Made by a program: the position numbers and the translations under genes. The notes under the pieces are model-generated. The model was given only the letters and a program-made list of their open reading frames with translations. It had not been told where the DNA came from and did not search any database. This document shows, one piece after another, positions 1 through 22,527 of a DNA stretch of 36,274 bases. The DNA lies in the NCBI GenBank assembly GCA_031254575.1, contig JAIRUE010000099.1:1-36274 (forward strand), in the 5' to 3' direction. Position 1 is the stretch's first letter, and every line of letters starts with the position of its first letter. Origin of the DNA: Oscillospiraceae bacterium (GTDB lineage: Bacteria > Bacillota > Clostridia > Oscillospirales > UBA929).

Positions 1-1338
1 GAGTATGAACATGATCATGATGACGCGCATCGTTTCCGAGATCGCGCTGACCAGAACGGCGGAGAGAATCATCATCAGCGGCAGCTGCGGGATGGAGGAG
101 ACGACTTCGGCAAAGCGCATCAGGAACATATCGACCTTGCCGCCGAAATACCCGGACAATCCTCCTATGACGATGCCGATGACGGCGGATATAAGCACCG
201 AGATAAAGCCGACGGTCAGGGTCACGCGCCCGCCGTATACCAAGCGGGTCAGGACATCCCTCCCGATCGCGTCCGTGCCCATCAGGTAGCCCTTTTGCCC
301 CCATACGGTCACCTTTCCGCCGGGATCGATGGCCGCGTTCTGATAATACGCCGTGTTGATCCGGGCGATATTTGAAACCCGGGGATAGCTCGCCTGACTA
401 AACATATCCTCGCCCCAGGAATACACCGACCCGTCGTCCAGAAGGACCGTATAGTGCGTTTTCCCCCCGTCAATATCCACCACCCGGCCCTGGATCTCGT
501 CCGGCACGGTATACGCGGGGGCCGCGAAGCTGCCCCATGTCACGACCGTCCCGTCGTCCAAAAGGGCGGCGGCGGTCTTATCGGTGGAAGCGAGGCCGAC
601 GGCGCGGCCCTGCACGCGGTCCGGAATTCTGTGAAAATGGCTGTCGGTCGCCGAAAGGCAGACGACGGTCTTATCGTCCTTCAGCGCGATGGCCGTCGCG
701 ATGTTCAGCGTAAACGCCGTGAAATGCCCCTGATCGGCCGGATCGGGCTTATAGCTGAACATACTGGCGTTGCCCCAGAAGTACAGCCTGCCCGTATCGT
801 CCAGCACGAGGGTGGACTGATAGCCGGCCTGTATCGCGACGATGTTCTTTCCGACCGCGCCCGGGTTGACGGTGGTGATGTTCAGGCGGTTGTTGCCCCA
901 GGTATAGATCGTGTTGTCCTCCGCGACGGCGACGATATGATCCAGGCCGCAGGCGACCAGCTTGAGCGGCTTCATATCCGCGGGCAGATCCGTCTTGACC
1001 TTGGCGACCGTGTCGCTCATGGTGCCCCACATGTAAAACTTTCCGTCCCGGTCAATCCCGGCGCCGAAGGTGGAACCGAAATCAACGGCTTTGGCGTTGT
1101 CTGTCAGCGCCTTCGGCAGGGAGAGATAATTATAGGACGGAGGCAGGTTCTGCCGTTCCGAATCACTGTAATTCAGATCGATGGGCATGATGAACGACAG
1201 CCCGAAGCAGAGCGCGAAAATGGACAGAAAGACCGCGATGCCGACGATACTGAGCTTTTTCTTGAGAAAATTGAGCGCGGCGGTGCGGCCGGGACTCTGC
1301 ACAAGCTCTTCACGGAAGAGATCCTTGTCTTTTTTCAT
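1..1338 (-). CDS. OppC/DppC-type ABC permease with an inserted seven-repeat RCC1-like propeller (partial, 3' end outside window)
   Basis: Inner-membrane permease of a peptide/nickel-class importer. The frame is open from the ATG at 1338 to base 1, giving 446 residues without a stop. Residues 27-50 form membrane helix 1. Residues 347-446 match the start of the binding-protein-dependent permease domain, with the family motif GTDAIGRDVLTRL at 354-366 and further hydrophobic helices. Between them, where this family normally has a short loop, lie about 280 residues made of seven repeats of roughly 40 residues. Six end in a W-G pair (W104, W147, W188, W268, W308, W346); the fourth, near 227-230, is degenerate. 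Each has a hydrophobic-D-D/G-x-[LVI]-Y-x-W-G pattern typical of RCC1 repeats. The insert should face outside the cell. The ATG lies 12 bases after the oppB stop with a G-rich SD. Permease assignment is sure; the role of the propeller is unknown. Confidence 0.93.
   Translation of the reverse strand, partial: MKKDKDLFREELVQSPGRTAALNFLKKKLSIVGIAVFLSIFALCFGLSFIMPIDLNYSDSERQNLPPSYNYLSLPKALTDNAKAVDFGSTFGAGIDRDGKFYMWGTMSDTVAKVKTDLPADMKPLKLVACGLDHIVAVAEDNTIYTWGNNRLNITTVNPGAVGKNIVAIQAGYQSTLVLDDTGRLYFWGNASMFSYKPDPADQGHFTAFTLNIATAIALKDDKTVVCLSATDSHFHRIPDRVQGRAVGLASTDKTAAALLDDGTVVTWGSFAAPAYTVPDEIQGRVVDIDGGKTHYTVLLDDGSVYSWGEDMFSQASYPRVSNIARINTAYYQNAAIDPGGKVTVWGQKGYLMGTDAIGRDVLTRLVYGGRVTLTVGFISVLISAVIGIVIGGLSGYFGGKVDMFLMRFAEVVSSIPQLPLMMILSAVLVSAISETMRVIMIMFIL
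298..1140 (-). other. Region encoding the RCC1-like beta-propeller insert of the OppC-type permease
   Basis: Residues about 67-347 of the permease. Repeat boundaries, judged by eye, are about 71-106, 107-148, 149-190, 191-230, 231-270, 271-310 and 311-347. Tryptophan spacing is 43, 41, then 80 across the degenerate fourth blade, then 40 and 38. Seven repeats is the blade number of the classical RCC1 fold. The last repeat runs directly into the GTDAIGRD permease motif, so the insert is seamless and in frame. Confidence 0.85.
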
Positions 1339-1350
1339 GACGCCCACCCC

Positions 1351-2340
1351 CTATGCAAGCCGAACGCGCGGATCGACAACGGTATACGCAATATCGATAA
1401 TCAGGTTGCCCACCAGCCCCAGCAGCACGTAAAACATGCCCAGCGCCAGGACGACGGAATAGTCCGAACCCACCAGCGCGTCGTAAAACAGCCTGCCCAT
1501 CCCCTGCCAGGAGAAGATCGTCTCCACCATCAGGGAGCCGCTGAACAGGCTGATCAGCCACCCGATCATCGCCGTCACGAACGGGATCATGGAATTGCGG
1601 AACGCGTGCGAATAAACGACCACTTTTTCCCGCAGCCCCTTCGCGCGCGCCGTACGGATATAGTCCATGCGCAGCGCGTCGATCATCGTCGCGCGGATAT
1701 AGCGGGTGAGCGAGCCGAGGGAGGTAAACACCATGACCCCGATGGGCAGGACGATATGCCACACGCGGTCGAAGAATATATCCGCCTTCGTGCCGGTGAG
1801 GTCCAGCCCGGGCGTGACGGAACCGCCGACGGGAAACCATTGGAGCGTGGACGCGAACAGAAAAATGGAAAACAGGCAGATGATATAGGTCGGCAGGGAG
1901 TAGCCCAGAATGGTCACCACCTGCACCGAGCTGTCAAACACGCTTCCCTTTTTCACGGCGGTGCGGATCCCCAAAGGAATGACGATGATGAAAACGATCA
2001 CCATGGTGATCACATTCAGCATGATCGTATTGGCCATGGGAGCCTTGATAACTTCTATAACCGGCCTGCGGTGGGTCGCAGAGCGCCCGAAATCCAGCCG
2101 GAGCATGTTGCCCATCCACCGGAAATACTGGATATAAACAGGCTTATCCAGCCCAAGCTGTCTCCGCGTCTGTTCCATCAGGCGCTCGAATTGCTCCGGC
2201 CGCATCTCCTGCTCACGGCCCTGCAGCTGCATGCGGACCGGGTCGGACGGCACGGCCTTGTATATGGCGAACATCATAACGGATATAAGGAAAAAGACGA
2301 AAATGATATAGATAAAACGCCTGATGATATACTTTACCAT
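1351..2340 (-). CDS. OppB/DppB-type ABC transporter permease
   Basis: First permease of the oligopeptide/nickel-class importer; it pairs with the OppC-like protein to form the membrane channel. 329 residues, the usual family length. N-terminal helix at about 9-30 (MVKYIIRRFIYIIFVFFLIS), then an extracytoplasmic stretch containing LDKPVYIQYFRWMGNMLRLDFG at about 64-85, typical of OppB. The transport domain follows with the EAA loop, DYIRTARAKGL then a run ending RNSMIPFVT, which docks the ATPase. The C-terminus VDPRVRLA is also typical. The start has a GAGAGGTG Shine-Dalgarno about 8 bases upstream. It lies between oppA and oppC in one minus-strand operon. ATPase genes are not visible and would be expected beyond the left edge. 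Substrate cannot be told from the permease. Confidence 0.95.
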   Translation of the reverse strand: MVKYIIRRFIYIIFVFFLISVMMFAIYKAVPSDPVRMQLQGREQEMRPEQFERLMEQTRRQLGLDKPVYIQYFRWMGNMLRLDFGRSATHRRPVIEVIKAPMANTIMLNVITMVIVFIIVIPLGIRTAVKKGSVFDSSVQVVTILGYSLPTYIICLFSIFLFASTLQWFPVGGSVTPGLDLTGTKADIFFDRVWHIVLPIGVMVFTSLGSLTRYIRATMIDALRMDYIRTARAKGLREKVVVYSHAFRNSMIPFVTAMIGWLISLFSGSLMVETIFSWQGMGRLFYDALVGSDYSVVLALGMFYVLLGLVGNLIIDIAYTVVDPRVRLA

Positions 2341-2454: not shown

Positions 2455-4485
2455 TTATTCGACCCAGGCTTTCACGATCGCGCCAGACCAGGGATACGAG
2501 GCCGAGTGCGCGTAGCCTTTCAGGCCGGGGATAAAGAAGTCGTGGTACAGATCCGAGTAGATCGGGAGGTCCAGCGCCAGCTCGTTGAAACGGACGACGA
2601 AATCCAGCCACTTGCTGAAGAAGCCCTCCTTATCCGTCGGCTCGGTGTTCTTCATGCCCATAACGGCCGCGTAGATCTGGTCGTCGGCGATGAAGTTGCT
2701 GTTCCACTGGCCCCAGGTGCTCGGGTCGGGATCAAAGTAGTACCACGGGGAGTCCGCCGTCGCGAAACCGGTCGCGGAGCTGACCAGGTGGTAATAGACT
2801 TCGCTGTAACCGTAAACCGCGTCGTTGAACGCGCTGCTGGTGCCGTCGTAGTCGGTGCGCGTGATGGAGAAGCCGGCGGCCTCGAGGTTGGGGGTAAACA
2901 GCGGGTCGCAGATGGCGCCGACCTGGACGTTGGCGGCGAACCACTCGAGGTGGAGCTTCATCAGGGAGCCGTCGTCCAGCTTCTTATAGCGGACGCCGCT
3001 CTCATACGGATCGCCGTTCTCGTTCAGAACCCAGCCGTTGCTTACCAGCTCTTCCACGGCGTTGTCCAGGTTGACCGTATAGGGGTTGAGCTTGCTGTCG
3101 ACCAGCTCGACGTTCTGGTTATACATCCACTGGGACATGCCCATGCGGCTGTGCACGATGACGCCGTAACCGCCGGTCCACTGGCGGCAGATCTCCTCGC
3201 GGTCCATGCAGTAGGCGATGGCGCGGCGGACTTCCGCCCATTGGGTCGGGCCTTCGCTGCAGTGCATGGTGAATTTGCCGTAGCCGTAACGCGGGAAGTC
3301 AAAGTAGCTGGAAGCGCCGGTGTCGCAGTAGTCCAGCAGCGCGTTGATGTTTTGCGCGCCGCCGATGCCCACGACCATGTCCACGCCGCCGGAGATATAC
3401 TCGTCGACCAGCGTTTCGCTCTGCGTCTGCTTGACCATGATGTTCTTGATCATCGGCTTGAAGCCCTCGTAGTCGCCCGGAAAATACTCGTTGACTTCCA
3501 GCGTGGCGATGAGGGCGGACGTGTCAAAGCTGAGGAACTTATACGGGCCGGTGGTGACGGTGGGGTTGTAGCGCGCGCCCTCGGAGCCGTTGTCGATGGT
3601 GGAGCGGAGAAGTTCGGCGGAGAAGGGCCCGTCGATATAGACGCCCTGGCCGTCGTCCTTGACCGAACAGCCCGGCGCGTAAATGTGGATCGGTTCGGGA
3701 CTGACCGACGCGTACGTGAGCTGGTAGTAGAAGGGGAAGTTGGTCTCGCGGTCCTCTTCGTTTCCGTCTTCGTCGTAGTAAATGGTTTCTGCGTCCACCG
3801 TCATGGAGAATTCATAGTCTCCCAGCAGGCGGACGCCGCTGAAGACGTTTGTCTTCCCGTTGCGGTAGTCGAGCGCGCCGCGGTAGACCTCGCTGCCCGT
3901 GAAGAGCTGAGCGCCCAGGCCGCCCTCGTCGGTGGTGTCGTTCATCTCCTTGGAGGAGGCCAGCAGCGCGGCAAACGCGTAATTCTCCGCTTTAACGGGG
4001 GTGCCGTCGCTGAACTTCAGGTTTTCGTGAAGTTTGAAGGAATAGGTCTTGGAACCGTCGGCGTTGGTTTCGATCAGAAGGGCTTTTACGACCATCGGGT
4101 CGATGACGAATTCGCCGTCCGCGGTGTAAACGACGGTGGCGAGGCCGTAAATGAGCTCCTTGACGCGGGCGTTGCCGCCCAGGTTGCCCCAGCCGCTCAT
4201 GAAGTCCACGTTCATGGCGTTCTCACCGACGGCCAGCTTGCCGGAGGGCGTCGTCGGACGTCCGGCGACCGAGCGGACGGAAGGCTGCGTAAATTCGATC
4301 CAGTCGCCTTCCTCGACGCTGGGCTGGACGGGGGGAGGGGCGTCGTCGTCGCCGCCGTTGGGCGCGGGGCTTGAATTGGAGCCGGAGTCGGTCGGGGCGG
4401 GTGAGCTGTCGCTGGGGCTCTGGCAGGCTGCAAGCAGGCCAAAGATCATCAGCACGGCGAGGGAAAGCGCTAAGAGCTTTTTCAT
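2455..4485 (-). CDS. Peptide/nickel-class ABC transporter substrate-binding lipoprotein (SBP family 5)
   Basis: Extracellular solute-binding lipoprotein that delivers ligand to the OppB/OppC pair. 676 residues, longer than the usual 500-550. Residues 1-20 are a lipoprotein signal with lipobox LAAC and lipidated Cys21. A Ser/Pro/Asp-rich tether follows to about residue 60. The family 5 fold is then visible: TYSFKLHENLKFSDGTPVKA (about 148-167) is the hallmark SBP_bac_5 motif, and VRRAIAYCMDREEIC near residue 420 is the second. The extra length lies partly in the tether and partly in insertions around residues 230-300. The start has a perfect AGGAGG Shine-Dalgarno and a strong promoter upstream. 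It is the first gene of oppA-oppB-oppC. Whether the ligand is a peptide or another solute cannot be read from the sequence. Confidence 0.95.
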   Translation of the reverse strand: MKKLLALSLAVLMIFGLLAACQSPSDSSPAPTDSGSNSSPAPNGGDDDAPPPVQPSVEEGDWIEFTQPSVRSVAGRPTTPSGKLAVGENAMNVDFMSGWGNLGGNARVKELIYGLATVVYTADGEFVIDPMVVKALLIETNADGSKTYSFKLHENLKFSDGTPVKAENYAFAALLASSKEMNDTTDEGGLGAQLFTGSEVYRGALDYRNGKTNVFSGVRLLGDYEFSMTVDAETIYYDEDGNEEDRETNFPFYYQLTYASVSPEPIHIYAPGCSVKDDGQGVYIDGPFSAELLRSTIDNGSEGARYNPTVTTGPYKFLSFDTSALIATLEVNEYFPGDYEGFKPMIKNIMVKQTQSETLVDEYISGGVDMVVGIGGAQNINALLDYCDTGASSYFDFPRYGYGKFTMHCSEGPTQWAEVRRAIAYCMDREEICRQWTGGYGVIVHSRMGMSQWMYNQNVELVDSKLNPYTVNLDNAVEELVSNGWVLNENGDPYESGVRYKKLDDGSLMKLHLEWFAANVQVGAICDPLFTPNLEAAGFSITRTDYDGTSSAFNDAVYGYSEVYYHLVSSATGFATADSPWYYFDPDPSTWGQWNSNFIADDQIYAAVMGMKNTEPTDKEGFFSKWLDFVVRFNELALDLPIYSDLYHDFFIPGLKGYAHSASYPWSGAIVKAWVE

Positions 4486-4664: not shown

Positions 4665-6929
4665 ATGTGGCTCAAAAAGCTCAGGCACAGGAAGCCGCAG
4701 TTTATTCTGGCCGGGGTCATCCTGTTTGTCTCGGCGCTCATTTTCTCCGCGAGCCTCAGCTTTATGGTGGAATCCAACCGGTTCGGGGAGGCGTATTACA
4801 GCCGGGAGGGCCTGCCCAACCTGTTGATTTGCAGCAATGACGGGCGGACAGACGGCACGATCCGGGAGATTTTTTCCGGCTCAGTCCTCCGCACGCTGGA
4901 GGGCTTTCAGCTCACCCAAGCGGTGGAGATAAACGGCAAAAAAATAAACGGGCTCTTCATGGTGTACCCGTTGGAAGATTTTGTCGCTGAAATACCGTGG
5001 GATTTTGAGCCTAAGGTCGGCGATATAAACGCCAAGGGACCGAAGCCGGGTGAGATTTGGGTCCCGCGTGTGTGGGCGGACATGAAAGACATCGAGGCTG
5101 GCGACACCCTTGTCATACAGGGCGGCGTTTCGCTCCGTGTGAGCGCGCTTTGCAACTCCTATATCAACCCCTCCAGCACCATGTCCCTGTATCAGTTTTT
5201 TATCCACCCGGACGAGATAAGGCGTCTGCCGGAATTACCAGACGAATACGTTGTCCCGCTGTATGTCGAAAAGGATTATGACCAGGTGAAGTCGGCCATT
5301 CTCGCCGCCGTCAAAGGCCATTACGGCGTAGTCGCCGTTGATCAGGGGGGCTTGATCATGAGCCTGAGCATGATCGCGATCCTCATGGGCGGTATCGGCT
5401 TGTTGTCCGCCATATTGGTTTTCGCGGTGGCGGTCATTGCCATACGTTTCATGCTGCGGGCCAACCTGATGAAGGAGTACCGGGCGATCGGCATCTATAA
5501 GTCGCAGGGTTTCCCTAACCGCCGGATACGCGGCTTCTACCTGTCCGGCTACACCGCCGTGGGCGGCGTCAGCATGTTGTTGGGCGTGATTGCCGGCTTC
5601 CCGGCCACCGCCGCCCTCTGTCAAATGGGGATGCGGTATGTGGGGAATTTTGAGTTCAGCGGTTTGATTTTTGCTCTCTCGGCGCTGTCTTTCGTCCTGC
5701 TGATGGCCGCGCTGCTCCTCAATGTGTTTTTGGCGACAAAGCCCATCAGGAAGATAACGCCGGTTGACGCGCTGCGGATCGGGGTGACGTCCACCAGGGC
5801 GAAGTTCAAACGCGCATGGATCAGGAACGCGTCCTCCCCGTTGTCCATGGCGGTCAACGATATCGGCAAGCACAAGGGGCACAGCGCCACAATCGTATTG
5901 ATTTTATGCGTTTCGTTCTATTTGACGTTCTTCGCCCTCTCCACATTGGTGACGACAAAAGCGATCGCCGAGGATTTAGATATCTGGTTCGGGGTCCCAA
6001 AAGCCGACGTTTTCGTGACGGGGCGGGTCAACGACGGCCTGATCGGGTATTTGGAATCCAACCCGGCGGTGGAGAAGCTGATCGTCTCGGAGGAAATTTT
6101 CAAGACACCGATTACCCTGGATGAAATGTATGGGTGTTCCGATCAGGTAAACGCCTTATTTTTCAGCGACTTCTCCACGCTGCCCTATACCATGGGGCGC
6201 GGGCCTCAAGCTGTGAACGAAATCGCGCTCAGCACGACCCTGCTGCGTAATCTTGACATGCGGCCCGGTGAATATCTGTCTCTTACGATCGGGGAGGAAG
6301 AGGACACGTACCTGATTACCGGTTCGTATGACAGCATGATGAACGGAGGCACGACCGTACAGCTCCTGTCGGATTGCCTGCCTGTCTATGACGATGAGTT
6401 CAATCAGGGGATTCTGATGATCCTCTTGAAAAAAGACGCGGCGCCGGCGGACCTGATCGAGGAATTGAACCGGACTTATGAGGGCGTTCTGGCGGAGGCG
6501 AACTTGGAAATGGTTGCGGATGCCGCGACAGGGGTTTCGGAAATGGTCGTTCCCATGACGCTGGTGATGATCGTTATGTTCAGTGTGTTCAGCGTCCTGA
6601 ACATCTCAAACCTGCTCCTGCAGGACCATGCCGACAGCCGGCGGCAATACGGCATCCTGAAGGCTATGGGATTTTCCGCCGCCTATATCACAGCCCGGAG
6701 CGCGTGGAAGATATTCCTGCTGGCTATCGTGGCGTCGGTTTTGAGTTTTCTGCTCCATATCCTGTGTTCCAGGGCGCTGTTTGCCGCCGCCGTGATTAAC
6801 GCGCTCCGTCCGGCTCTTCCCCAAACCCTGCTGATGCTGGGCGGCCTGTTGGCCCTGCTGATGGCCGTCACGTTTCTTTTCTGCCTGCCGATCCGCAAGA
6901 TCACACCGCTTGAATTGATGGAGGAATAA
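4665..6929 (+). CDS. FtsX-family ABC transporter permease, two FtsX domains
   Basis: Membrane subunit of a MacB/Bce-like ABC transporter that couples ATP hydrolysis to movement of extracytoplasmic domains rather than classical import. 754 residues. Helix 1 lies at about 12-35, followed by a large extracytoplasmic domain (about 36-225). The first FtsX module spans about 228-360 and contains a cytoplasmic EYRAIGIYKSQGFP coupling segment. Another helix sits near 405-430, then a second external domain to about 620. The C-terminal FtsX module (about 625-754) contains RRQYGILKAMGFS and ends KITPLELMEE. The repeated KITPV/KITPL ends mark an internal duplication. It is first in a tight set with its ATPase (3-base gap) and a two-component pair. 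Such sets usually act in antimicrobial-peptide or envelope-stress resistance, which is an inference here. Confidence 0.9.
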   Translation: MWLKKLRHRKPQFILAGVILFVSALIFSASLSFMVESNRFGEAYYSREGLPNLLICSNDGRTDGTIREIFSGSVLRTLEGFQLTQAVEINGKKINGLFMVYPLEDFVAEIPWDFEPKVGDINAKGPKPGEIWVPRVWADMKDIEAGDTLVIQGGVSLRVSALCNSYINPSSTMSLYQFFIHPDEIRRLPELPDEYVVPLYVEKDYDQVKSAILAAVKGHYGVVAVDQGGLIMSLSMIAILMGGIGLLSAILVFAVAVIAIRFMLRANLMKEYRAIGIYKSQGFPNRRIRGFYLSGYTAVGGVSMLLGVIAGFPATAALCQMGMRYVGNFEFSGLIFALSALSFVLLMAALLLNVFLATKPIRKITPVDALRIGVTSTRAKFKRAWIRNASSPLSMAVNDIGKHKGHSATIVLILCVSFYLTFFALSTLVTTKAIAEDLDIWFGVPKADVFVTGRVNDGLIGYLESNPAVEKLIVSEEIFKTPITLDEMYGCSDQVNALFFSDFSTLPYTMGRGPQAVNEIALSTTLLRNLDMRPGEYLSLTIGEEEDTYLITGSYDSMMNGGTTVQLLSDCLPVYDDEFNQGILMILLKKDAAPADLIEELNRTYEGVLAEANLEMVADAATGVSEMVVPMTLVMIVMFSVFSVLNISNLLLQDHADSRRQYGILKAMGFSAAYITARSAWKIFLLAIVASVLSFLLHILCSRALFAAAVINALRPALPQTLLMLGGLLALLMAVTFLFCLPIRKITPLELMEE

Positions 6930-6932
6930 ACC

Positions 6933-7685
6933 ATGAACACCGTAATCAGGACCCAAGGGCTGTGCAAGTCCTTTATCTTAGGAAAAACCGGCCTGCATGT
7001 GCTGAAAAATCTGGATATAGCGATCTACGAGGGCGACTTTACCGTTATCATGGGCAGTTCCGGCTCGGGCAAATCGACGCTTCTGTACGCCCTGTCCAGT
7101 ATGGACGGGGCCACCAGCGGGCGCGTCGAGGTGCTGGGGCGCGACATCACCGCCATGAATCCCAAAGCCTTGGAAAGCCTTCGGAAAAGAGACGTGGCGT
7201 TTGTGTTTCAAAGCGTCAACCTGCTGTCCGATCTGACGGCATTTGAAAATATCGCCTATTGCGGGTATAATGGGGGAGAGCCTAAGAAAGCGGTGAACGC
7301 CCGGACTCGGGAATTGCTGGAGCGTTTCGGCCTGTGGGACGACGCCGGAAAGTACCCCGGCGAGATGTCCGGCGGCCAGCAGCAGCGCGTCGCCATCGCC
7401 CGCGCGCTGATCAACAGCGCGAAGATCATCTTTGCCGACGAACCGACCGGCGCGCTCAACTCGGCTATGGGCGAACAGATTCTGGACACCCTGACCGGGC
7501 TGAACAACGCGGGGCAGAGCATCGTCATGGTCACCCATGACATGAAGGCGGCCTGCCGCGCAAACCGCCTGCTCTACTTAAAAGACGGGCGTATTGTGGG
7601 GGACTTGGCGCTGGGACGGTATGAAAAAAACGACATCGAGCGCGAGGAGAAGATTTTTGCCTACCTGAAGGAGAATCAATGGTAA
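6933..7685 (+). CDS. ABC transporter ATP-binding protein, MacB/LolD/BceA class
   Basis: Cytoplasmic ATPase partner of the preceding FtsX-type permease. 250 residues. Walker A GSSGSGKST at 41-49, Q-loop Gln93 in FVFQSVNLL, ABC signature MSGGQQQRV around 145-153, Walker B IIFADE at 165-170 followed by PTGALN (typical of the LolD/MacB/BceA class), and switch His202 in VTHD. Every catalytic element is intact. The Shine-Dalgarno GGAGGAA overlaps the end of the permease gene and the start is 3 bases past its stop, so the two are translationally coupled. It is followed after 15 bases by the response regulator. Confidence 0.96.
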   Translation: MNTVIRTQGLCKSFILGKTGLHVLKNLDIAIYEGDFTVIMGSSGSGKSTLLYALSSMDGATSGRVEVLGRDITAMNPKALESLRKRDVAFVFQSVNLLSDLTAFENIAYCGYNGGEPKKAVNARTRELLERFGLWDDAGKYPGEMSGGQQQRVAIARALINSAKIIFADEPTGALNSAMGEQILDTLTGLNNAGQSIVMVTHDMKAACRANRLLYLKDGRIVGDLALGRYEKNDIEREEKIFAYLKENQW

Positions 7686-7700
7686 GGGCGAGGTGTTATT

Positions 7701-8372
7701 TTGAGCGAAACAATCCTGCTTGTGGAGGACGACCGCGATTTATCGGACGTGGTGGCCGCCTATCTGAAAAACGAGGGCTTTGCCGTCACGCAAGCCTATA
7801 CGGGCGGCGAGGCGCTGGAGCGGGCGAAACAGTTGCCGCGGCTTGTGCTGCTCGACATCATGCTGCCGGAGATCGGCGGGATCGAGCTTTGCCGCCGGAT
7901 ACGGGAGTCCTCCCACGCGCCGATCATCATGCTCTCCGCCAAAAATACCGATATGGATAAACTCCTCTCACTGGGCATGGGCGCCGACGACTATATGACA
8001 AAACCCTTCTCCCTGCCGGAGCTGGCGGGACGGATCCGCGCCCATCTGCGCCGTTATACCGTCTATGACAAGGAGCGGGAAACGAGGCAATACGGTTCGC
8101 TCACCATCGACCCGAAAGCGTACGCCGTCACGGTGGACGGCAGGCCGGTTTCGCTGACCTCCAAAGAGTTTCACCTGCTGGACTTTTTGAGTTCCCACGC
8201 CGGCCAGGTATTTACCAAATCACAGCTGATGGACGAGGTGTGGGGCTACAACGAGTATGTGGATGAGAATACCATCGCGGTGTACATCGGGCGGCTGCGT
8301 GAGAAACTGACCAAAACGCACGGCGGCCATGTCAAGACGGTTTGGGGCGTCGGGTACAAGTGGGATGAATAG
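7701..8372 (+). CDS. OmpR/PhoB-family response regulator
   Basis: DNA-binding response regulator paired with the downstream kinase. 223 residues. Receiver domain 1-115 has acidic pocket D10/D11, phospho-acceptor Asp52 (LLDIMLP), conserved Ser79 and Lys101 in KPF. The winged-helix DNA-binding domain spans about 125-223, with the LTSKEFHLLDFL and HVKTVWGVGYKW signatures. The start must be TTG at 7701, because the frame has an in-frame stop at 7683 and no ATG or GTG between; GAGGTG lies 5 bases upstream. The stop overlaps the kinase start. The most likely targets are the transporter genes just upstream, although no repeat operator was recognised before them. Confidence 0.95.
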   Translation: MSETILLVEDDRDLSDVVAAYLKNEGFAVTQAYTGGEALERAKQLPRLVLLDIMLPEIGGIELCRRIRESSHAPIIMLSAKNTDMDKLLSLGMGADDYMTKPFSLPELAGRIRAHLRRYTVYDKERETRQYGSLTIDPKAYAVTVDGRPVSLTSKEFHLLDFLSSHAGQVFTKSQLMDEVWGYNEYVDENTIAVYIGRLREKLTKTHGGHVKTVWGVGYKWDE

Positions 8373-9699
8373 GTATATCTTTCGGAAGACGCTGCGGTTT
8401 GTCATTGCCGCCGGGTCGGCGGCCGTGGCCGCCGCGGTTTATATCATTCTGATGCTTGCGGTTCTACTGTCCCGTATAGAGGACAGAAGCGCGGAAAGGA
8501 TCGCGGCCCATCAGCTGCAAAACGAGCTGGAAGCTCTGCTGGCGGACGGACGGGGACTGCCGTTTTTGCCGGACAGCGGTTTCGGGTATGCCGTGTTCGA
8601 CCTGGAAGGCGGCAATCTCGGCTCCACCATCCCAATGTATCGGGGCGGCATAGACGTCCGGCTGCTCTCCGCCATGAAAGAATACACCGCGCCGCTGATC
8701 GTGGACGGCGCGCAGGCCGGGACGCTGGTAGCGGATATTCCCCGGAGGGCGCCGTGGGGGACCGTTTTTTTGACGGGCGCCCCCGTCCTCATTTTGTGCG
8801 CCGGGCTGACAGTCTTGCAGGCAAGGCACATCTGGTTTGTCAAAACTGACATAATACGCCCCCTTGAAGAACTTCACGGCGTGGTGGAACGGATGGTCAA
8901 GGGGGATTTGAGCGTGTCGGTTTCGTATGATTACGACGGGGAGATGGGCGCGCTTTGCCACGACTTCGAGGCCATGCGCGACGAACTGCGCGACGCCGCC
9001 CAACGCGAGCGGAGCCATCAGGAAAAGGAACGGCTGCTGTTCGCCAGCCTGTCCCACGACCTGAAAACGCCGCTGTCCTCGATCTCCGGCTATGCCGAAA
9101 GCATCCGGTACGGCGTGGTGAAAGAGCGGGCGGACATTGAGCGGTATACCGGCATTATTCTGAAAAAAACCAGGGATCTGACCCGCTCGATAGAGGATAT
9201 ACTGACCCATGTGCAGACGCAGATGCATGAAATGAGCATCAAAAAAGAGGAGCTGTATTCCAAACCTCTCTTTGAAAAACTGCTCGCGGACGCCGCCCAC
9301 GACGCGGCGGTCAAGGGGCTGACGCTGGAATTGCGGGGGGAGATCCCCAACAGGTTGATCCTCGCGGACCCCGCGCGGATCGCCCAGGTGTGGCAGAATA
9401 TCACCGGCAACGCCATAAAATATACGGAGGCCGGGGGACGTATCACCGTTTCGGTCGAGGCCGCGCGGGAAGAACTGAGAGTTTCCGTGGAAGATACCGG
9501 GCGGGGCATCCGGCCGGAGGATATGCCGTTTGTGTTCGAGCCGTTCTTCCGGGGGGAAAAGTCCCGCGACCCGAATGTGTCGGGATCGGGGCTGGGATTG
9601 TCCATCGCCAGGTACATTGTGGAGCGGCACGGGGGCAGGATCACTTGCGAGAGCGTCCCGGATGAAGGGACAAAGGTTGCATTCTCTGTTGTGATATAG
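8365..9699 (+). CDS. Sensor histidine kinase (HAMP-HisKA-HATPase_c)
   Basis: Membrane sensor kinase for the preceding regulator. With ATG 8365 as start, 444 residues. Helix 1 is at about 10-36, an extracytoplasmic sensor region of about 95 residues follows, and helix 2 is at about 132-156. HAMP spans about 157-215. HisKA carries phospho-acceptor His231 in SHDLKTPL. The ATPase domain has the N box NAIKYTE near 349, VEDTGRGI near 375-382 and GSGLGLSIARYIV near 407-419. ATG 8365 overlaps the regulator stop by 8 bases (ATGAATAG) and gives a normal kinase N-terminus; an upstream in-frame start at 8329 would add 12 untypical residues. The external loop is larger than in BceS-type kinases, so it may sense a ligand directly. 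Confidence 0.93.
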   Translation: MNRYIFRKTLRFVIAAGSAAVAAAVYIILMLAVLLSRIEDRSAERIAAHQLQNELEALLADGRGLPFLPDSGFGYAVFDLEGGNLGSTIPMYRGGIDVRLLSAMKEYTAPLIVDGAQAGTLVADIPRRAPWGTVFLTGAPVLILCAGLTVLQARHIWFVKTDIIRPLEELHGVVERMVKGDLSVSVSYDYDGEMGALCHDFEAMRDELRDAAQRERSHQEKERLLFASLSHDLKTPLSSISGYAESIRYGVVKERADIERYTGIILKKTRDLTRSIEDILTHVQTQMHEMSIKKEELYSKPLFEKLLADAAHDAAVKGLTLELRGEIPNRLILADPARIAQVWQNITGNAIKYTEAGGRITVSVEAAREELRVSVEDTGRGIRPEDMPFVFEPFFRGEKSRDPNVSGSGLGLSIARYIVERHGGRITCESVPDEGTKVAFSVVI

Positions 9700-20778: not shown

Positions 20779-22527
20779 TTATTCCTCGTCCTGCAAAGCG
20801 TCGTATCCTTCCTCACCGGTACGCACTTTGACGACATTTTCAATATCGGAAACGAATATTTTACCGTCGCCCACATTCCCCGTATACAATACGTCCTTCA
20901 CCGTGCTTATCACGGTTTCAGGGGGTATTTTGCACACGACAATATCCACCTGGACTTTCGGCAGGAGCCTTACGTTGACCGGAGCGCCGCGGTAGTATTC
21001 CAGATGTCCTTTTTGCATCCCGTGACCAAGGACGTTTGTGACCGTCAGGCCGTTAATGCCGATTTTGTCAAGCGCGGTGTGAAGCATCGGGAATTTGTCC
21101 TGATTGGTAATAATTGTGACCCTTGTCATCTTCACGCCCGGGCGCGCGCTGTTCACCACGGGTATGGCGACTTCCGGCGCGACCGGTTCCGCCGCGCGTC
21201 CCGTCATTTTAACCGGAGCGGCGGCAGCGATCCCGTTTCCGTCGCCCGTTTCCATAATAGGCGCCACAATTTCAAAGTCGGGATAAGCGCGGTTGCCATG
21301 CTCGCCAATATCAAGGCCTTCGATTTCCTCCTGAAGGCTGACGCGGATTCCTATGGTCTTTTTAAGGAGGGACCATACCAGCACGGACAAAACGGAAACA
21401 AACGCGCCGACAGCGACGACCCCCAGCGCCTGCACGCCGAGCAGATGAAACCCGCCCCCGAAGAACAGGCCGTTAACTTCAGAGAGGCTTGTCACGCCTT
21501 CCTCGGCAAAAAGCCCGATGCAAAGCGTTCCGAAAACGCCGCAGGCCAGATGGACGGAGGTCGCGCCCACGGGGTCATCAACTTTCGCCCTGTCAAAGAG
21601 AATAACGGCAAACACGACAATGATGCCGGAAAGGGCGCCGATGATCAGGGAACTCCCGACGCTGACATAGGCGCAGCCGCCGGTAATGCCGACAAGCCCC
21701 GCAAGACAGCCGTTGATGGTCATGCCAAGGTCAGGCTTGCCAATGAAAACCCAGGAAGTGGCGGTGGCGGTCAGCACCGCCGCGATCGCCGCGGTATTGG
21801 TGGTCACAAGAATGTGCGCGACGTCGCCGGGGTTTTGAAAACTCATGGTGGAGCCGGGGTTAAACCCGAACCACCCCAGCCACAGTACGAACAGGCCGAT
21901 CACGGCAAGGGACATGTTGTGGCCGGGAATCGCCCGCGGCTTTCCGTCCTTGCCGTATTTACCGTGACGGGGGCCCAGCAGCAAAGCGCCGGCCAGGGCC
22001 GCCCAGCCGCCGAGCGAGTGAACGACGGTATCGCCCGCGAAATCCATAAAACCCAGGTTTGAGAGCCAGCCGCCGCCCCAGATCCAGTGGCCGACGACAG
22101 GATAGATGAAAAGTGTCAGCACAAAGGAAAACAGGATAAACGATATGTACTTGACGCGTTCCGCGACCGCCCCGGACACAATGGTCGCCGCAGTGCCGCA
22201 AAATACCAGCTGGAAAAAGAATTTGCCCCAGAACGGCACAACCGGCGTCAGGGTGTCCTTGTAGAAATCAAGCGATGTTTTGCTTAAAGCGAACAGGTTT
22301 TGCGTCCCGATAACCGGATTCTCCCCGCCGAACATCAGGCCCCAGCCCAGCAGCAGGTATCCGAGGGAGGCGACCGCGAACACGATAAAGTTCTTTGAGA
22401 GGATGTTCACGGCGTTTTTTGATCTGGCCATGCCGGATTCGACTGCCGCAAAACCGAGATTCATAAAGAATACCAGTATGGCGGCCAGCAGTACCCACAG
22501 GGTATCAACAATCATGGTGGTGCTCAT
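20779..22527 (-). CDS. Ammonium channel (Amt) with C-terminal fused P-II signalling domain
   Basis: 582 residues. Residues 1 to about 405 form an Amt/MEP channel of about 11 helices, with conserved [35 protein letters not shown] and GFNPGS motifs. A linker of about 60 residues follows. Residues 467-582 are a complete P-II (GlnB/GlnK) protein that keeps the MQKGH (Gln39, Lys40 in P-II numbering) and GDGK (Lys90) ligand residues. In the T-loop the sequence is RGAPVNV instead of RGAEYMV, so the uridylylated Tyr51 is replaced by Val. The domain could plug or gate its own channel in response to ATP/ADP and 2-oxoglutarate. Amt-P-II fusions are known in some Clostridia. It is cotranscribed with glnN. 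Confidence 0.95.

Follow-up and report, generated by a model that had tools for sequence, protein, structure and literature searches.

The stretch of DNA analysed here, the window, comprises 36,274 nucleotides and is a complete contig (G000:C108) of an Oscillospiraceae bacterium, to which all window coordinates refer. At its left end, on the minus strand, lies a gene for an OppC-type permease, preceded by genes for an OppB-type permease and a family-5 substrate-binding lipoprotein (Table 1). The minus-strand frame at 1-1347 has 449 codons without a stop and continues past the contig end; the likely start of the gene is the ATG at 1338, which gives 446 residues. Because the window is the whole contig, the gene is cut, and comparison with relatives indicates that about 135 C-terminal residues are absent. 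Neither the remainder of this permease nor its ATPases were found in the window's own genome assembly.

Table 1 Features of the permease gene and its operon in the window
Feature	Position	Strand	Evidence
OppC-type permease (446 residues, truncated at the contig end) carrying the RCC1-like propeller	1..1338	-	Open frame, Pfam, NCBIfam, end-to-end homologues
Membrane helix 1 region, inside OppC_N	1189..1281	-	Pfam OppC_N; helix 29-51 in the model of the relative L075
Seven-bladed RCC1-like propeller	298..1095 (about)	-	Repeat coordinates; L075 model with seven three-stranded blades; BLIP-II match
Propeller blades, about	970-1095, 844-969, 730-843, 607-729, 484-606, 370-483, 298-369	-	
GTDAIGRD permease motif, after a 6-residue junction from blade 7	256..279	-	Sequence; junction conservation
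Start of permease core from TM2, truncated at the contig end	1..255	-	Partial BPD_transp_1; NCBIfam Opp4C E 1.6e-32
OppB-type permease, 329 aa, own TM1-TM2 (scoop) segment kept	1351..2340	-	Pfam BPD_transp_1 E 1.1e-35, BPD_transp_1_N; NCBIfam Opp4B 300.8 bits
Family-5 substrate-binding lipoprotein, 676 aa, lipobox LLAAC	2455..4485	-	Pfam SBP_bac_5 E 9.1e-27; model pLDDT 89.0

An earlier note on this DNA, made from its letters, had described a single frame joining membrane helix 1, seven repeats (six with a WG pair) and GTDAIGRD. That description is accurate, as judged from the open frame and the WG count. The six WG pairs, at residues 104, 147, 188, 268, 308 and 346, close repeats 1-3 and 5-7, and repeat 4 has none. 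When the residues of the window permease were shuffled 2000 times, WG occurred 0.6 times on average and four times at most. The domain searches that the note had called for found both parts with Pfam. OppC_N matches residues 18-70 with 27.0 bits (cut-off 23.9), and RCC1_2 matches in five stretches with 96.6 bits (E 4.8e-28, cut-off 22), while an RCC1-like domain model also matches below its cut-off. BPD_transp_1 is matched over its first third with 19 bits (profile positions 1-59 of 184), a partial match because the gene is cut. The NCBIfam OppC models cover residues 328-449 of the frame.

The window permease is a subunit of a five-gene peptide-type ABC importer, which is ordered, where the flanks suffice, as binding lipoprotein, OppB, OppC with propeller, OppD and OppF. 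The first three of these genes are in the window, and OppD and OppF were seen in relatives with enough flank, where OppF matches ABC_tran and oligo_HPY. At two loci, L095 and L151, no binding-protein match was found at the expected place. The set has the hallmarks of Opp/Dpp importers, namely OppC_N with a full BPD_transp_1 core (the core shown in L075), OppB, a family-5 binding protein and, in the relatives, two ATPases. Incidentally, many carrier operons encode an OppF (e.g. L079:9704-11173 and L107:9735-11282) with a charged insertion of ~150-180 residues, probably a coiled coil, that separates the Walker A region from the Q-loop; L085:9714-10721 and other carriers lack it.

The structure was predicted for the full-length permease of L075, which is 62% identical to the window protein, using a 42-row alignment. 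The model has a mean pLDDT of 87.9 and a pTM of 0.82, and consists of a helix at 29-51, seven three-stranded blades over 83-347, and helices from 362 onward. The propeller, mostly above pLDDT 90, is predicted to close as a seven-bladed fold. In comparison with solved structures, residues 68-338 match BLIP-II, beta-lactamase inhibitory protein II (Z 32.5, rmsd 2.0, 256 aligned, 29% identity), and the remainder, spanning 14-576, aligns with E. coli OppC over the full 278 residues of that chain (Z 30.0, rmsd 2.3, 37% identity). UVR8 and BLIP-II were also top-ranked in a sequence search of the PDB. As modelled, the L075 permease is a whole propeller inside an ordinary, whole OppC. The claim that the first external OppC loop holds a complete propeller of seven blades is thus borne out by this model and by conservation in many genomes; a prediction without a propeller had been named in advance as what would speak against it, and in the L075 model the propeller is present.

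The insertion point is the TM1-TM2 loop of OppC, which is external by established topology. We infer that the propeller-bearing loop lies outside the membrane and beside the pore, in the position that partners the OppB scoop. The junction from the propeller to helix 2, RGYLMGTDQSGRD in L075 and WGxKGYLxGTDxxGRD in the family, is the family's most conserved stretch with a mean entropy of 0.59 bits, compared with 1.02 bits for TM2-6, 1.6-2.2 bits for the blades and 2.3 bits for the inter-blade loops, the least conserved part. Five to six WG pairs are near-invariant. Because the junction is short and highly conserved, its sequence suggests that the propeller is fixed in position relative to helix 2, as would suit a rigid platform rather than a loose tether.

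Five other genomes encode proteins of this build that align with the window permease along its length, with identities from 63 down to 33%. A scan profile composed of helix 1, the propeller and GTDxxGRD was matched end to end, or very nearly so, by 28 of 394 genomes of the order, once in each; these 28 represent ten families. Three further matches in the order were partial, and one of these probably comes from a carrier truncated at a contig end. Sampling across the phylum found the build in 14 of 398 genomes, a count that includes the window's genome and one locus at a contig end. A scan of named genomes yielded 123 loci, and in the best 80 of the 123, which were analysed, the build is in a single frame without exception (two are cut by a contig end). 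By NCBI title, 68 of these best 80 loci are from Bacillota, 9 from Spirochaetota and 3 from Chloroflexota, although labels of metagenome bins may err. Named isolates among them include Coprococcus comes MSK.16.63, Hungatella effluvii DSM 24995, Soehngenia longivitae 1933P, Anaeromassilibacillus sp. An200, Gemmiger sp. An120 and Falcatimonas sp. MSJ-15. The fusion sought in other genomes therefore recurs in at least 80 bacterial genomes. An assembly or binning artefact fusing a permease gene with an RCC1-repeat gene might have been suspected from a contig that stops within the gene and a remainder not found in its assembly, but it is refuted with near certainty by the uninterrupted build in 80 separately assembled loci, isolates included.

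Permease history was examined with a tree of the permease core built by a quick method with the propeller left out, in which the close relatives L074 and L075 stand in for the window, whose fragment is too short. A single branch (SH-aLRT 93) sets all 44 carriers apart, and none of 500 shuffles was as clustered. A search of 295 genomes of the order with the L075 core gave carriers as its 20 best matches (at least 262 bits and at least 50% identity), all of them already found in the profile scan. The next-best matches reach 231 bits and 47% in permeases of ~520-540 aa, and those that were read contain an insert of a different kind. No loss of the propeller was seen in these 295 genomes, and the simplest reading of the sequences is one gain with no observed loss. 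The three Spirochaetota rows of the tree cluster (SH-aLRT 99) among Bacillota rows, and this nesting suggests transfer.

The nearest propeller-less OppCs (L205-L209, L211) have inserts of ~60-380 residues in loop 1, with no RCC1 repeats and, in those scanned, no Pfam match. They resemble the carriers in insertion point, operon order and long binding proteins, and differ in lacking RCC1 repeats; we found no published account of them. Since varied inserts occupy one loop, OppC loop 1 seems to be a site of domain gain in this branch. In L205:7773-9320, L206:5428-6990 and L207:8012-10066 the inserts are beta-rich, ~200-380 residues long and without a Pfam match, and the binding proteins are 757-781 aa.

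Compared with known Opp/Dpp importers (E. coli OppBCDF, 8z21, and DppABCDF, 8z1y; M. tuberculosis OppABCD, 8j5q), the carriers share the five-gene set, the oligo_HPY-tailed ATPases and an OppC core aligned throughout with that of E. coli, but add ~270 residues, the propeller, between TM1 and TM2 of OppC. BLIP-II (3qi0, 1jtd), the closest solved propeller, is alike in fold only; it is a separate secreted protein, whereas the carrier propeller is part of a membrane permease. The RCC1-like domains of RCC1, UVR8 and HERC share the repeat family and the seven-bladed fold, but are eukaryotic and intracellular with longer repeats, unlike the external, bacterial propeller of the carriers, for which Ran-type GTPase exchange activity is implausible given its location and host. 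GlnPQ and OpuA also have an extracytoplasmic soluble domain covalently on the permease. In these importers it is a terminal substrate-binding domain, whereas the carriers have an unrelated propeller within a loop and keep a separate binding protein. We found no paper in the searched open-access literature on RCC1 repeats in an ABC importer permease, and none on a transporter of such a build, as the earlier note had supposed. The parts are known and their combination appears undescribed, though automatic annotation may already list it.

The substrates are most likely oligopeptides. Oligopeptidase F (PF01432, PF08439) adjoins the operon in 14 of 83 carrier loci, ten times upstream and four times downstream, and in none of 18 propeller-less operons; with looser clustering it is found at 19 carrier loci. 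The link is suggestive rather than strong because related loci are counted separately, and these neighbours belong to a minority of carriers clustered in few lineages. They are only a hint of peptide import; family-5 binding proteins also take nickel and other ligands. For the holding of cell-wall fragments, another proposal of the note, we found nothing in support, and oligopeptidase F, where a lineage has it next to the operon, suggests peptides. Of 23 carriers tested within the window's order, 19 have the propeller permease as their sole OppC_N-matching protein, so that it may be the main route of peptide uptake there; outside the order, each of the five carriers tested has three to six such proteins.

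The model of the window's binding protein matches the structures of NikZ, DppA, AppA and lactococcal OppA with Z of 24-27, and about 470-517 of its some 600 ordered residues were aligned to the nearest chains. The note's length for this protein stands (676 aa), and in the carriers full-length binding proteins have the family-5 fold and a length of about 600-715 aa. Length as a sign of a co-evolved receptor is not supported, and as a mark of the propeller it was rejected, since the binding proteins of related propeller-less operons are longer still (750-854 aa). In 63 operons, the partial correlation of propeller distances with those of the binding protein, with the other operon genes removed, is 0.02, against 0.38 for OppB, 0.43 for OppF and 0.35 for the permease's own core. 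Specific co-evolution of the two was thus not detected.

A lipobox, found in the window's own binding protein, is missing by a simple pattern in 15 of 72 carrier operons. Binding proteins without it include those of L106, L131, L133, L137, L140, L147, L149 and L153, from MAGs labelled Clostridia, Clostridiales or Chloroflexota. A propeller that retains a non-lipidated binding protein was considered and rejected, as sugar-type binding proteins with readable N-termini, compared in seven of these eight genomes, also seem to lack the lipobox. Its absence therefore looks like a lineage trait, and such a lineage may anchor its binding proteins otherwise.

How the propeller may act can be approached from E. 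coli DppABCDF, where DppB and DppC are both capped by the binding protein and DppB inserts its TM1-TM2 scoop into the cleft of that protein (PMC12136057). Placed in the equivalent loop of the other permease, a domain would therefore adjoin the binding protein. On this analogy the propeller likely contacts the capping binding protein, and docking of that protein by the propeller is plausible on geometry. Our tentative reading, which we put a little short of an even chance, is that the propeller forms a rigid platform on the outer side, next to the pore, and engages the binding protein. Contact with the docked protein would raise its occupancy or steer its docking and release, within a transport cycle that would otherwise be the Opp/Dpp cycle. 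Since OppB keeps its own TM1-TM2 segment, the usual docking would probably be supplemented rather than replaced. Such a platform is favored by the presence of the build in all of the best 80 of 123 loci, the conserved operon order, the whole propeller within a whole OppC in the L075 model, the absence of observed losses, the low entropy of the junction and the oligopeptidase F neighbours. On the other hand, the missing co-variation and the long binding proteins of non-carriers count against it, and with the inter-blade loops so variable, no shared docking surface is evident. As no co-variation signal was obtained, the platform reading rests on position and conservation.

The same variable blade loops could form a specificity surface if the propeller itself bound the substrate, be it a peptide or a molecule that bears one, and passed it to the binding protein or the pore. 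Propellers are common ligand binders, and GlnPQ and OpuA are precedents for capture domains fused to permeases. Nevertheless we regard this as unlikely, because nearly every operon still encodes a full binding protein and no conserved pocket residues were seen beyond the RCC1 consensus. It is likewise improbable that the propeller anchors another extracellular protein or a wall component, e.g. a peptidase, beside the importer in the manner of BLIP-II. RCC1-like domains are mostly protein binders, as is BLIP-II, and fast-evolving loops would agree with this. However, no conserved partner gene lies beside the operon save oligopeptidase F in a minority, and that enzyme is usually cytoplasmic. Improbable to a greater degree is a passive spacer or shield without a specific partner; quite different inserts at the same loop in relatives indicate a permissive loop, but all sampled members of the group keep seven blades, an almost invariant junction and the near-invariant WG pairs.

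In the usual view, the permease surface on which binding proteins dock is nearly bare. A conserved propeller beside the pore would bring a third party into this docking, and the build means that an ABC importer permease can hold a large foreign domain within a loop. The carriers could, on a balance that we see as tilted slightly against, constitute a distinct class of peptide importer. The permease-borne propeller of this class would serve as an additional receptor or docking element, and would have arisen by a single gain and spread through Bacillota and into Spirochaetota. The wider group around this class would be one in which OppC loop 1 takes up different external domains time and again, altering how binding protein and pore meet. 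Cultured carriers exist, e.g. Coprococcus comes and Hungatella effluvii.

Three further features were observed in the window and its genome. A separate open frame of 1065 aa at G000:C25:64468-66549 (minus strand) has 14 RCC1 repeats, at most ~30% identical to the permease propeller. Divergent from the operon, at 4665-9699 on the plus strand of the window, an FtsX-type ABC permease, an ATPase, a response regulator and a histidine kinase are encoded in series, an arrangement resembling antimicrobial-peptide sensing modules. At 20779-22527 on the minus strand, an ammonium transporter and a C-terminal P-II regulatory domain are fused in one frame.
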